Assembly: GCA_913055845.1 (NCBI GenBank)
Contig: CAJXKO010000006.1
Span: 1-64,000 of the forward strand
Direction of reading: 5' to 3'
Origin: an uncultured Bacteroidota bacterium
GTDB lineage: Bacteria > Bacteroidota > Rhodothermia > Rhodothermales > Salinibacteraceae
DNA: 64,000 nt
Positions 21,277 to 26,510 of the stretch are shown here, in pieces. Numbering within the stretch: the stretch's first letter is position 1; each line of letters starts with the position of its first letter. The notes under the pieces are model-generated. The model worked only from the letters and a program-made list of their open reading frames with translations, ran no database searches and was not told the DNA's origin. The translations under genes and the position numbers were made by a program.

Positions 21277-22068
21277 ATGAGAGCGTTTCAACACGTCTCC
21301 TCCCTCTTAGTCCTCGTCGTTGGTCTCGGTCTGTTGATCGCGGGCTGCGATTCGAGTGGCTCAGGGACCGAGGCGGGAACCGTCGAGGTCGGATTTGCGA
21401 CGGCCTCCTCCTCAACCAATCAAGGCAACGTGGCGACCACGTCGATGACTCAGTCCCTGGACTCGGACTCTCTCGTACTGACGGGGTCAAACGGCACGCT
21501 CACCATTACGGACCTCCGCCTGATCGTCGATGAGATTGAGTTGGAGGGCGACGCCGACAGTGCAGAGTTCGAAACCGAACGGCCGTCGTTCTTGGACCTG
21601 CCGCTTCGGGAGGGAGAGGTGTCGCCCGTCGCGGCCGATCAGGTGCCTCCCGGAGCGTACACGGACTTTGAGTTCGAGATTGAAGACATAGAGCTCGACG
21701 ACCCGGACGAAGAGGGGGAGATCCGGGATCTCCGCGGCGACATCCGCGAGGAGTTTCCGGACTGGCCCAATTCTGCGAGCATGGTCGTCGTCGGCACCTT
21801 TGCGCCGACCAACGACACATCCAGCACCTTCGAGACGTATTTCGAAGCGGAGATCGAAGTGGAGCGGGAGTTGGATCCTCCCCTGCAAGTCGGCAGTGAT
21901 GGATTTTCGCGGGACCTGATCGTGCGGCTGGATCCTGCCCGGTGGTTCGAGCGCTCCGACGGGACCGTTCAGGATCTCTCTCAGTCCGACTTTGACGAGA
22001 CAGGCGAGATCCTCGAGTTTGAGGCCGAGTTCGAGGACGGCGTGACCGAGATTGAATCTGACGACTAA
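21277..22068 (+). CDS. Acidic lipoprotein, first of a paralogous pair (DUF4382-like)
   Basis: Predicted lipoprotein of 263 residues: signal LLIAGCDSSGSG with lipidated Cys24. The mature chain is very acidic, with runs such as EDIELDDPDEEGEI, as usual for exported proteins of salt-in halophiles. The core pattern is a strand 'ITDLRLIVDEIELEG', then a segment ending 'VPPGAYTDFEFEIEDIEL', then 'FETYFEAEIEVEREL'. The same architecture recurs in the next gene, so the two are paralogues. The layout recalls DUF4382-type carbohydrate-binding-like lipoproteins, a tentative assignment. No catalytic motif is visible. A beta-sandwich surface role is inferred. Confidence 0.75.
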   Translation: MRAFQHVSSLLVLVVGLGLLIAGCDSSGSGTEAGTVEVGFATASSSTNQGNVATTSMTQSLDSDSLVLTGSNGTLTITDLRLIVDEIELEGDADSAEFETERPSFLDLPLREGEVSPVAADQVPPGAYTDFEFEIEDIELDDPDEEGEIRDLRGDIREEFPDWPNSASMVVVGTFAPTNDTSSTFETYFEAEIEVERELDPPLQVGSDGFSRDLIVRLDPARWFERSDGTVQDLSQSDFDETGEILEFEAEFEDGVTEIESDD

Positions 22069-22119: not shown

Positions 22120-23718
22120 ATGCTGTCACGCTCGACTGACGTCTTCACGTTCCAGAATAGTCACCGGTATGCCCCGCTCTTCATTGGTCTCCTTCTCACG
22201 GTTGGACTTCTCGGGTGCGATGCGACCGGGCCATCCGGCGGTGCTGAACCGGAGGCCTCGCCCGTATCGCTTTCAGTCTCGGCGAACAGCGGAACCGAGA
22301 CGGGGGCTTCGCAAACTAATGCGAAGGGATCCTTTGCCGAGAGCCTCTTCACCGACTCGGAGGGCAATCGTCTGCACCTCGATCGGGTAGAGATCGTTCT
22401 CCAGTCGATTGAGTTTGCCCGGGCAGACGTCGTAGAGGATTGCCACGACGGTCGGGAGGAGGATTGTGAAGAGCTCGAAGCGGGTCCCATCCTGGTCTCT
22501 CTCCCGCTAGAGTCAGACGCGCCCTCGGTCGTCGTGGACACGACCCTGCCCGAGGGCGTGTGGGAAGAGGCCTCATTCGAGGTCGATGTGCCGTCCAACC
22601 CGTCCATTCTTGAGGGGACCACGTTTCCGTCCGGCGCCAGCATCCGGGCCCAGGGAACGTTTACGCCAGCGGGAGGGGTGGAGCAGGACTTTACGTTCCT
22701 CAGCGATCTCAGCGAGGAGCGGGAGCTGGAGTTTGAGCCTCCCATCGAGGTGTCGGAGAATGAACAGACGAACGTTACCTTTTCGGTCAACGTGAATACG
22801 TGGTTTCGTAGGCCCGACAGCACGCTGGTAAATCCGGTCGACGCCAACGAGGGACGCCCGTTCGAAGATCTCGTGGAGGAAAACGTCGAATCGTCCATCG
22901 AGGGATTCGAAGACAATGATTTCAATGGGGAGGACGACCACGAGGAAGAGCAGGATGAGGATGATGAGGAAGACGAGGAGGCCGAGACCGAAATTGAGGC
23001 CGATCTCGAAAACACAGGTGTAGATCCGGATGCCTCGGGAGAAGTCGAGTACGAACAAGAGGCGGACAAAGAAGAGTTTTCGGTTGAGGTCGAAGATCTC
23101 GACGTGGGGACGTATCAGGTCGTCGTCGATGACACGATGCGTGGCGAAATTGACGTGGTCACCACTGAGGACGGCACCGAGGGCGAGGTGGAGTTCCGCG
23201 ACCCGCCCGAGTCCGGTCATCCGGCATTAGAGTTCGATCCCCGGGGCACACGGGTGGCCATCGTGCAGAACGGCAGCACCTTCCTTGAGGCCGACGTGCC
23301 GACTCAGTCGGGCGATGATGAGGACGAAGACGGCGATGACGATGGTGACGATGACGGGGAGGACGAAGACGGCGACGAGGACGCCGAGAAAGAGATCGAA
23401 GTAGACCTCGAAAACACAGGCCCCGATTCGGACGCCTCTGGCGAGGCCGAGTTTGAACAGGAGGATGACCGGCGAGAGTTCAAGGTCGAGGTTGAGGATC
23501 TGAGTCCCGCTACGTACAACGTGGTGGTCGCCGACACCGTCCGTGGGCAAATCGAAGTAGTCGAAGGAGGCGATGCGGAGGGAGAGATTGAGTTCCGCGC
23601 CCCTTCCGAGCCGGGCCATCCGCTGCTCGACTTCGATCCGCGGGGAGCGCACGTGGCCGTTGAGAAGGACGGAACGACGTACCTTGAAGTGGACTTTCCG
23701 TCCGGAGACGATGATTAG
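22120..23718 (+). CDS. Acidic lipoprotein with two tandem repeat domains and poly-acidic linkers
   Basis: 532-residue predicted lipoprotein (LLGCD, Cys33), 51 bp after its paralogue. Residues 34-270 match the preceding lipoprotein in layout (HLDRVEIVLQSIEFA, then ELEFEPPIEV, then NTWFRR). The rest is two tandem copies of a domain of about 105 residues. Copy 1 begins IEADLENTGVDPDASGEVEY and copy 2 begins IEVDLENTGPDSDASGEAEF; both share the blocks 'VEVEDL..TY.VVV.DT.RG.I.VV' and 'GHP.L.FDPRG..VA'. Each copy is preceded by an almost pure Asp/Glu linker, the second Asp/Gly-rich (DEDGDDDGDDDGEDEDGDED) like calcium-binding linkers. Cation binding or adhesion is inferred; no enzyme motif is seen. 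Confidence 0.8.
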   Translation: MLSRSTDVFTFQNSHRYAPLFIGLLLTVGLLGCDATGPSGGAEPEASPVSLSVSANSGTETGASQTNAKGSFAESLFTDSEGNRLHLDRVEIVLQSIEFARADVVEDCHDGREEDCEELEAGPILVSLPLESDAPSVVVDTTLPEGVWEEASFEVDVPSNPSILEGTTFPSGASIRAQGTFTPAGGVEQDFTFLSDLSEERELEFEPPIEVSENEQTNVTFSVNVNTWFRRPDSTLVNPVDANEGRPFEDLVEENVESSIEGFEDNDFNGEDDHEEEQDEDDEEDEEAETEIEADLENTGVDPDASGEVEYEQEADKEEFSVEVEDLDVGTYQVVVDDTMRGEIDVVTTEDGTEGEVEFRDPPESGHPALEFDPRGTRVAIVQNGSTFLEADVPTQSGDDEDEDGDDDGDDDGEDEDGDEDAEKEIEVDLENTGPDSDASGEAEFEQEDDRREFKVEVEDLSPATYNVVVADTVRGQIEVVEGGDAEGEIEFRAPSEPGHPLLDFDPRGAHVAVEKDGTTYLEVDFPSGDDD

Positions 23719-23891: not shown

Positions 23892-24434
23892 ATGAAGCTG
23901 TACGGTCCGCTCGGTTTCGATCGCTGGCTGCTGATTCTTCTCTTGGTCCCGGCCGGAACAACGGTTGTACAGGCGCAGACGCCTGCGTCCTGTGACACGA
24001 GTTACGCACAGGCTGAGGAGGCCTACTTTGCCGCCCAGTTCGAGACTGCGGAGGCCCTGCTGCGTCCCTGTGCTCAGGAGGTGGCTCTCCAGGACTCGGT
24101 TCGGGCGCGAATGTACCGGCTCCTCAGCTTCGTCTACCTCGGTCAGAACGACTCGGGCGCAGCCCGGCGAGCCGTTGAGAGCTTGCTCGATCTCCAGCCG
24201 ACCTACACGCCCAATCCGGCGGAGGACCGGCCCGATTTTGTCGCCCTCGTGCAGAAGGCGAAGAAGGCCCGACAAGCCAAGGCGAGGACGAAGGAGAACG
24301 ATCGTCGATGGGTGCGATGGGCCCTCGGGGCGGGTGCGGCGGCTGTCGGGACCGCCGCGGTGCTTTTGCTCAGGGGGGATGGCTCGGGGGACGGACCCGA
24401 GCCGCTCCCGCGACCTCAACCACCCCCGGAATAG
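23892..24434 (+). CDS. Secreted/anchored protein with TPR-like helical repeats
   Basis: 180-residue protein with a clear N-terminal signal (hydrophobic core WLLILLLVPAGTTVV, probable cleavage after VQA). The mature part has paired helices of TPR type (YAQAEEAYFAAQFETAEALL, then VRARMYRLLSFVYLGQND), then 'LLDLQPTYTPNPAEDRPDF', a phrase common in TPR proteins of Bacteroidota envelopes. A basic stretch (KKARQAKARTKENDRRW) precedes a C-terminal hydrophobic helix (ALGAGAAAVGTAAVLLL) and a Pro-rich end. It lies just before the T9SS-type protein gene and is probably cotranscribed with it. Function unknown; a role in surface-protein assembly is a guess from context. Confidence 0.7.
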   Translation: MKLYGPLGFDRWLLILLLVPAGTTVVQAQTPASCDTSYAQAEEAYFAAQFETAEALLRPCAQEVALQDSVRARMYRLLSFVYLGQNDSGAARRAVESLLDLQPTYTPNPAEDRPDFVALVQKAKKARQAKARTKENDRRWVRWALGAGAAAVGTAAVLLLRGDGSGDGPEPLPRPQPPPE

Positions 24435-24455: not shown

Positions 24456-26510
24456 ATGCTGGTTTGGTCGACGGGTGGCATGCGAATCCGATACTTCTTG
24501 GTTGTCATTCTATTCGCTCCGGCTGTCGCGGTGGCGCAAGTGCCCCAAAACTTGGAAGCCACCGCGGGCGACCGGCAGGTGTCCCTCGAATGGACGACCC
24601 CTGAGGTGGAAGAGGGGGATTCGCTTACCTGCTACCGGGTGTACCGAGACACCACTTCGATTCCGGACGACACTCCGAGCGATTTTTCTGACCTTCGCGT
24701 GGCCGAACTTGAGCCCTTCGAGGGGGAAGCTCCCTCCTACACCGACTCGGGCCTGTCGAACGGCACCACCTACTTTTACCGCGTCACGGCCGAGGTTGGG
24801 GAAACGGGAGACGGGCCGCTTACCTGCGGCGGGGACGATTCGGACGAATCCTCGTTTTCCAATCAGGCCACCGCCACCCCGTTTGCGCCCACGGTGCTTC
24901 AGATTACGTCCCCCGAAGTGCCGGTTTCTCAGCCCGTCGATGCGGACAGGGCTGTCGACGTGACCGTGGAGGGTACCAATGTGCCTCCGGACGAAACGGT
25001 GCGGCTCCGGCATCGGCAAGGCGGAGAGGCCTCGTTTAACACCCTGACGATGGCCCAAAACGGGACCGAGTTCACCGCCTCTATTCCAGGGGCCGATGTC
25101 ACGGCCCGTGGGGTTGAGTATTTCGTCACGACCCGAGACGAGGGTGGGAACGCAGTGCGCGTGCCGTCGGAGGGTGTGGCCTCCGTCCGGGTGAACTCCA
25201 AGACGCTTTCGCTCACCCAACCCGGAGGCACGGCACAGACCGCCTACCGCATGGTCACCTATCCGGGCCAATTAAACGACCCGCAGCTGTCGAACCTGTT
25301 CGAAGTCCTCACGCCCTACGATCCCGCTGAATGGCGGCTTTTCGCAATTGGGTCAGAGGGCGTCACCGCTGATGGTGGGTACGTAGAGCGGGATGACCTG
25401 GGCACGGACTTGGGCACCGGGGAAGGGCTGTGGTTCATTAGTCGATCAGGGACCACATTGGGGCCGATTGAGGGAACGTCCCTACGCACGGACCGGCCCT
25501 TCGAGATTGCGTTGCGCGCGGGCTGGAACTTGATCGGCAATCCCTTCGCGTTTGAGGTTCCGGTCTCGCAACTCCGCGTGACGAACAGCGCGGGGACGCT
25601 CCAGGACATCTTTGGGTACGATGGCACCTTTGTGCCGAAGTCGGAGGGGGACGTGCTGGAGCCGTACCGCGGATACCTCGTCCGCCTCTCGGATGGGCAA
25701 GCGGGCACCTTGGTGATCGACCCCGCCGCGAGCCCGACGTCGTCCGTCCCTTCGTCGGCGCGCTCTCGGGCACGGTGGACGGTAGATGTCTCCGTACGCG
25801 TCGGTCAGGCGCGGGACCAATTCAATACCTTTGGGGCGGCCCCTGGTGCTGGAGACGGAATCGACCCGGCAGACGGCCGGGAGCCGCCGCCCGTGGGCGA
25901 CTACGTCTCGCTTGCCTTCCAGCCCCCCACACAAAACGGGGCGCTCTGGCGAGACCTTCGGGGAACGGGCCAAGCGCTGCGCACGTGGACGGCCGACGTG
26001 CGGACGACGGTGTCGGGCCGGGCCACGCTTACGGTGAAAGGAGTTGAATCGGTGCCCGAGGGACAGGATGTCTGGCTTGTGGATCCGGCGCTCGACCTAT
26101 CTCAAAATCTCCGGGAGAATCCCCGTTACCAGTTTCCGGTGTCCGGAGAGGAAGAAGACCGTCATGTACGATTTCTCGTCGGGTCCCCCGCAGAGGTACA
26201 ACGGGCTGTCGGCAAGGAAACCTCTCGTCCTGAGCGGGTGCGGCTCCTGCCCAGTGCCCCGAACCCCATCCAAGCGCAGGCGACGCTGCGCTACGCGGTC
26301 CCATCCCAAAAGCGGGTAACGCTTGAGTTGTACGATCTTCTCGGGCGGCGGGTCGCGACCCTGGTGGACGACCGTACCGTCCAGGCGGGCACTCATTCAT
26401 ACGTCTGGACGCCCGGAGCGGGAGGGGAACGCGTCTCCAGCGGGACCTATCTGCTGCGCCTCCGTGCCGGGGAGGAGACACGAACCCGAAAAGTTGTGGT
26501 GGTGCAGTAA
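24456..26510 (+). CDS. Secreted fibronectin-III protein with T9SS C-terminal sorting domain
   Basis: 684-residue exported protein. After the signal peptide (core YFLVVILFAPAVAVA) there is a fibronectin type III domain (about 30-145: QNLEATAGDRQVSLEW, CYRVYRDT, SNGTTYFYRVTA). Then comes an Ig/beta-rich region, a middle segment with 'AGWNLIGNPFAF' and 'LEPYRGYLVRL' typical of Bacteroidota surface proteins, and a C-terminal type A sorting domain (PNPIQAQATLRYAVP, LYDLLGRRVATLVD, SSGTYLLRLRAG, KVVVVQ). The last domain predicts export by the type IX system and surface attachment. The ATG at 24456 has the purine-rich AGGAAGGTGAG 12 bases upstream; ATG 24480 is an alternative. It has no catalytic domain. 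Confidence 0.88.
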   Translation: MLVWSTGGMRIRYFLVVILFAPAVAVAQVPQNLEATAGDRQVSLEWTTPEVEEGDSLTCYRVYRDTTSIPDDTPSDFSDLRVAELEPFEGEAPSYTDSGLSNGTTYFYRVTAEVGETGDGPLTCGGDDSDESSFSNQATATPFAPTVLQITSPEVPVSQPVDADRAVDVTVEGTNVPPDETVRLRHRQGGEASFNTLTMAQNGTEFTASIPGADVTARGVEYFVTTRDEGGNAVRVPSEGVASVRVNSKTLSLTQPGGTAQTAYRMVTYPGQLNDPQLSNLFEVLTPYDPAEWRLFAIGSEGVTADGGYVERDDLGTDLGTGEGLWFISRSGTTLGPIEGTSLRTDRPFEIALRAGWNLIGNPFAFEVPVSQLRVTNSAGTLQDIFGYDGTFVPKSEGDVLEPYRGYLVRLSDGQAGTLVIDPAASPTSSVPSSARSRARWTVDVSVRVGQARDQFNTFGAAPGAGDGIDPADGREPPPVGDYVSLAFQPPTQNGALWRDLRGTGQALRTWTADVRTTVSGRATLTVKGVESVPEGQDVWLVDPALDLSQNLRENPRYQFPVSGEEEDRHVRFLVGSPAEVQRAVGKETSRPERVRLLPSAPNPIQAQATLRYAVPSQKRVTLELYDLLGRRVATLVDDRTVQAGTHSYVWTPGAGGERVSSGTYLLRLRAGEETRTRKVVVVQ

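Follow-up and report, generated by a model that had tools for sequence, protein, structure and literature searches.

The window analyzed here is a stretch of 64,000 nucleotides, and all features described below lie on its forward strand. Positions 22120–23718 encode an acidic lipoprotein of 532 amino acids with a net charge of about −129 (K+R minus D+E, signal counted). By sequence reading, a signal peptide (22120–22218) carries a lipobox-like LLGC at residues 30–33, i.e., with Cys33 as its last residue. It is followed by an N-terminal β domain that may resemble MbnP and is paralogous to the product of the neighboring gene (22219–22905). Acidic linker 1 (22906–22989, residues 263–290, 68% D/E) leads to a first module (22990–23289, residues 291–390), and acidic linker 2 (23290–23391, residues 391–424, 62% D/E), which is Asp/Gly-rich and has a composition not conserved in relatives, leads to a second module (23392–23688, residues 425–523). 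This second copy, with short flanks, was the one we modeled. Both modules are predicted to be shaped like a Cu,Zn superoxide dismutase (SOD).

The two modules are 62% identical over 109 residues (blastp, E 7e-45; 63% by another comparison), and these are the only two copies in the organism's own genome. The original prediction had proposed a duplicated domain with the blocks LENTG.D.DASGE and FDPRG in both copies and an acidic stretch ahead of each, and this description holds on all points. The window has 140 stop-to-stop stretches of 150 codons or more. When a single 30-residue run was scored in each of them, the module lipoprotein had the densest acidic run (22/30) and the neighboring lipoprotein the second densest (16/30). 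As far as can be read from sequence, the protein is built of a lipid anchor signal, two module copies and acidic spacers. The window organism belongs to the genus of genome G006, and since G006 and Salinibacter altiplanensis AN15 have the same module open reading frame, this genus is Salinibacter.

The adjoining gene (21277–22068) encodes a lipoprotein with the N-terminal-type domain alone, and its similarity to the module lipoprotein is confined to this domain (26% identity, E 1e-7). A paralogue without the duplication, as had been predicted, is therefore present, but it need not have lost the modules, because it is closer to a separate family at another locus (55–58% identity to the nearest relatives found) than to the N-terminal domains of five module-bearing orthologues (25–28%). 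Among six Salinibacter genomes compared, only the window has this extra gene beside the module gene, and a tblastn search of 12-kb stretches of the five others found no second such lipoprotein gene. These five genomes share with the window the gene order NtrC-type regulator, histidine kinase, module lipoprotein, 180-residue protein, fn3 protein and Ser/Thr kinase with PEGA domains. In the window, the syntenic 180-residue protein (23892–24434) has no Pfam match over cut-off. The syntenic fn3 protein (24456–26510) scores 26.3 bits against a cut-off of 25 and has a match to a secretion sorting tail below cut-off (23 of 27 bits).

MbnP is a copper-binding protein. It was the top fold match of the N-terminal domain model (pLDDT 75.4), with Z 7.9 and an rmsd of 4.1 Å over 169 residues, whereas the next entry reached Z 4.1. 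With the MbnP Pfam model (PF20243), the neighboring gene scored 14.6 bits, below the cut-off of 27, and the 532-residue protein had no match at E 10. In contrast to MbnP, the N-terminal domain family (15 members) has no His, Met or Cys among its 16 invariant columns. The domain may be MbnP-like in fold. Gammaproteobacterial carriers of the module (L015–L029) have an N-terminal domain in common, with the motif F[TS]G.W....QG, for which four whole proteins scanned (L015, L016, L021 and L022) gave no Pfam match. Profile comparison of this domain with the module gave P 0.0023, in an alignment at the end of a slice that, judging from where it lies, extends into the first module.

Neither the module nor the whole lipoprotein was matched at cut-off by any Pfam or NCBIfam model, so that the earlier impression of an unfamiliar domain was upheld by profile search. 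Moreover, sequences in the PDB gave no match to the module, and a literature search with narrow terms returned no title or abstract about it. Structure prediction yielded a confident AlphaFold2 model from an alignment of 57 copies (pLDDT 94.4, pTM 0.87); the truncated outlier L009 was left out of the structure alignment and of the tree, and L026 was removed because it is identical to L006. Eight strands make up the model, with turns of two residues between strands 4 and 5 and between strands 7 and 8, the sites of the two metal loops in SOD. Comparison with VIA placed it closest to Cu,Zn SOD: the best match was an engineered SOD1 lacking loops IV and VII (Z 11.2, 2.1 Å, 93 residues), and all 50 matches listed were Cu,Zn superoxide dismutases with Z of at least 9.6. 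Foldseek returned 4bd4 as best match (E 1.2e-4, TM 0.64), and 45 of the 50 matches listed were superoxide dismutases by name, although only two had E < 0.001, with rmsd values of 3.8–5.8 Å.

We mapped the columns of the SOD copper ligands H46 and H48, both in strand 4, via a local hhalign alignment with the module. They were inspected in 123 distinct modules, i.e., 321 domain matches after removal of duplicates and of matches with fewer than 60 match columns. Histidine occurred in two of the 123 modules at the mapped H46 column and in none at the H48 column, and HxH was found in none over the match columns. By comparison, 22 of 24 Sod_Cu rows, drawn like all our SOD and CHRD rows from relatives of the window organism, keep H[IV]H; the two matches without this copper motif are L106 and L107. 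In the alignment, copper ligands are absent at both mapped columns. From the missing metal loops and the missing histidines, the module is predicted to be a metal-free barrel of Cu,Zn SOD topology, and a role as SOD enzyme was ruled out on the same grounds. A search of the window's genome with Sod_Cu (PF00080) likewise gave nothing at E 1e-5, and Sod_Cu is not among the best 25 of 27 Pfam families for the 57 modules. The most conserved module residues are a Tyr in predicted strand 4, invariant in 123/123 modules, and an L-x-F-[DN]-P stretch ahead of strand 7; both look structural. The Tyr aligns with the position that we take to be H43 in SOD1 numbering. Cysteine is present in three of the 123 modules.

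Local hhalign comparison of the module with SOD gave P 0.0051 at a probability of 7% (P 0.0043 with a deeper profile). The alignment covers strands 2–4 in register, and its score was reached by none of 300 column shuffles, a lenient control because shuffling destroys the strand pattern. Global comparison gave P 0.25 with a wrong register, and reversed-profile controls gave P 0.2 and 0.39. For comparison, the SOD and CHRD profiles match each other at P 2.4e-5. Sequence support for common descent of the module with SOD or CHRD is weak, and we do not take such descent as established.

This weak link is one argument for a different reading, namely that of a generic immunoglobulin-like sandwich, perhaps sugar-related, whose barrel converged on the SOD shape, in a protein that is a salt-adapted envelope component. 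Pfam matches below cut-off point in this direction, since HepII_C (16 of 57 module copies) and GcnA_N (7 of 57, best E 9.6e-5) are β domains of glycan enzymes. Four of the GcnA_N copies scored 13.8–17.8 bits on rescanning (cut-off 27), the best one not being among them. One whole relative (L021) even reached 26.3 bits with HepII_C against a cut-off of 26.1, albeit with no single stretch at E 0.1 and 15.8 bits for its first module alone; the window protein scored 21.9 bits. The gene is also missing from four of ten near-complete Salinibacter genomes. However, the single modules scanned score 13–18 bits with HepII_C. Moreover, the SOD matches span the entire module above the Z of 8 that VIA calls common, and the in-register local alignment was not equaled by any shuffle. 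We therefore consider a converged immunoglobulin-like sandwich unlikely and continue with the predicted SOD-type barrel.

The Asp/Gly-rich linker 2 had been likened to calcium-binding linkers. The comparison with relatives speaks against such a role, as linker acidity is not conserved and the DxDxDG motif, with three overlapping matches in the inter-module linker of the window, is missing from the linkers of three two-module sister species. Inter-module linkers have a D/E fraction of 0.58 in Salinibacter (n = 4) and of 0.25 in Gammaproteobacteria (n = 27), where G/S/N make up 0.48, and the linkers of many relatives are Gly/Ser/Asn-rich. The acidic linkers are hence best read as salt-adapted spacers.

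Two other features might bind cations. At 22912–22947, DNDFNGEDDHEE forms a candidate cation loop of the type DxDx[DN]G, a motif found within 40 residues ahead of module 1 in 6/6 Salinibacter orthologues. The loop is DxDx[DN]GxxDxxE-like and follows a predicted helix and a short strand, directly before the acidic linker. The second feature lies in the modules, where four acidic positions in predicted strands 3 and 6 are all kept in 97 of 123 modules. Strands 3 and 6 run side by side in the SOD topology. The cluster is complete in 40/42 modules of Pseudomonadota (first set), in 6/10 of Salinibacter and in 1/4 L030 modules; by reading, both window copies retain all four acids. Its retention in Pseudomonadota and partial loss in Salinibacter argue that the cluster is no salt adaptation, and it may be relaxed in Salinibacter, where a binding face may consequently not matter. 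As the protein is acidic throughout, the cluster could also serve solubility only.

The conserved loop and the widely kept cluster would both fit modules that bind Ca2+ or Mg2+ through one or the other, with the metal stiffening or cross-linking lipoproteins at the cell surface; this would transfer the original cation-binding idea to different residues. Yet a search at E up to 10 matched the window protein to no calcium-binding family, and DxDx-type motifs easily arise in acidic chains. Given also the incomplete cluster in Salinibacter and the missing linker 2 motifs in the sister species, we regard this divalent-cation reading as improbable.

A first genome scan found no relative of the module, and another scan, based on a broader alignment, yielded 17 loci. 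The first set comprised 58 module copies in 24 open reading frames, and in a wider set 48 of 59 distinct open frames had two to four copies; this count includes frames that are truncated at a locus end or were encountered twice. At E 0.001, the module occurs in 8 of 60 relatives of the window organism, one match being short and weak. Within Salinibacter, 6 of 13 genomes carry it, four with two copies and two with one copy. A draw from the window's phylum gave matches in 6/296 genomes at E 0.001, of which four are clear carriers; the matches in G083 and G149 turned out on reading to be other proteins.

At the same threshold, the module is present in 66/299 genomes from the order of the gammaproteobacterial Lysobacterales MAG G334, 2/369 from its class, 9/33 from the family of Marinicella meishanensis and 3/198, one marginal, from the phylum of the MAG behind L030. 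Each of these four draws counts in the carrier on which it was centered, and the order draw also includes four other known carriers. The module is therefore common in one gammaproteobacterial order and patchily distributed elsewhere, and it is present in at least two phyla without a curated family. An envelope module of halophiles, as originally suggested, agrees with these data in its first part, i.e., a lipoprotein signal and repeats on linkers, but not in its restriction to halophiles, as Marinicella and Lysobacterales carry the module and only 4/296 genomes of its own phylum do. Its recurrence in quite different bacteria argues against a halophile invention; the module seems to be an uncatalogued unit for binding or spacing that is not specific to salt-lovers.

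Each of the three copy positions has a clade of its own in Marinicella and one related MAG, with ultrafast bootstrap values of 99, 100 and 100 for copies 1, 2 and 3, which indicates that in this group the triplication is old and that positions have long been kept. Support is 81/69 for the fork, drawn open, at which the Salinibacter copies group with a Great Salt Lake copy and with two copies from a single Lysobacterales MAG, and on this support we do not claim a transfer from Gammaproteobacteria to Salinibacter. In the Bacteroidetes MAG GSL.Bin22 (L014, 3707–5305), very long Asp/Gly/Ser runs come after a single module, and a DUF5666-like segment and a CHVPPGNP segment come next. A tblastn search with module 2 in plasmid and phage collections at E 0.01 returned nothing, and 82 pattern matches in viral contigs included no confirmed module relative. 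A mobile or phage origin was rejected on these searches.

Taken as a whole, we find it somewhat probable that the protein is an envelope lipoprotein in which a lipid anchor, an MbnP-like domain and two metal-free barrels of SOD topology on acidic spacers are combined, the barrels being non-catalytic binding or spacer units. These would be located outside the membrane, by analogy to the CHRD domains of chordin. The linkers would keep the barrels apart, in halophiles as Asp/Glu chains, which remain soluble in concentrated salt; in many relatives, Gly/Ser/Asn chains would serve the same purpose. In the family at large, the acidic cluster of strands 3 and 6 would be the likeliest binding face, with a cation or a basic ligand as its partner. 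A more far-reaching evolutionary scenario appears possible but rather doubtful: an undescribed family in which an SOD-type barrel lost its metal sites and loops, was arrayed in tandem copies and acquired a novel acidic binding face formed by strands 3 and 6, with an MbnP-like domain joined to it in Salinibacter.

If this scenario were true, nature would offer in the module a counterpart to the engineered SOD1 without its loops, and the module would represent a third route from an SOD-like barrel to a repeat scaffold, beside CHRD and CSRP. If the main reading is right, a fold would be assigned to an uncatalogued module of 66/299 genomes in one order, and a natural loop-free barrel could be compared with engineered ones in work on SOD1 folding. 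The acidic protein itself would then be re-read, from a calcium adhesin of halophiles to a member of a wider scaffold group with salt-adapted linkers.

Among known systems, CHRD (PF07452) is similar in that it is also a metal-free, SOD-shaped domain found in tandem, although here a predicted model is compared with a published description. According to PMC13382577, the CHRD domains of human chordin are SOD-shaped, lack the 4–5 and 7–8 loops, have no metal there and bind sulphated heparin. CHRD repeats (L108–L137) are frequent in relatives of the window organism, where they occur in many-copy proteins in 23 of 60 genomes. This occurrence, the shared shape and a profile match of P 0.0047 (0.0027 with a deeper profile) would all suit a module that is a divergent CHRD domain and hence already covered by a known family. 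However, the module–CHRD score of 21.2 barely exceeds the best of 300 column shuffles (21.1). Motifs were derived from the CHRD rows of relatives, 3 of 30 rows having been left out because they exceed 150 residues: a terminal [GA]E[ILVM]R[GA]Q is present in 27/27 of these rows and H[ILF]H in 24/27, whereas the former occurs in 0/123 modules and the modules likewise lack HxH. Also, the CHRD model matched nothing in the window's genome at E 1e-5. With motifs and model match absent, we dropped the assignment to CHRD and consider a divergent CHRD domain very unlikely.

We infer instead that the module works like a CHRD-type scaffold without belonging to CHRD. It differs from CHRD in its missing motifs, its long linkers and its net negative charge (−21 per 100 residues in Salinibacter), which would make a chordin-like binding of heparin unlikely. 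With Cu,Zn SOD (Sod_Cu, PF00080) and the loop-deleted SOD1 (4bd4), the module shares a predicted eight-stranded Greek-key barrel. Unlike Cu,Zn SOD, it has neither loop IV (zinc) nor loop VII (electrostatic), it lacks copper ligands at the mapped columns, and its copies are arranged in tandem. Tandem SOD-fold repeats are also found in the CSRPs, animal Cu-only SOD repeat proteins that are extracellular according to PMC13017621; there, the copper site is kept in many repeats and a disulfide reportedly in all, in contrast to the modules with their rare cysteines and their lack of any HxH.
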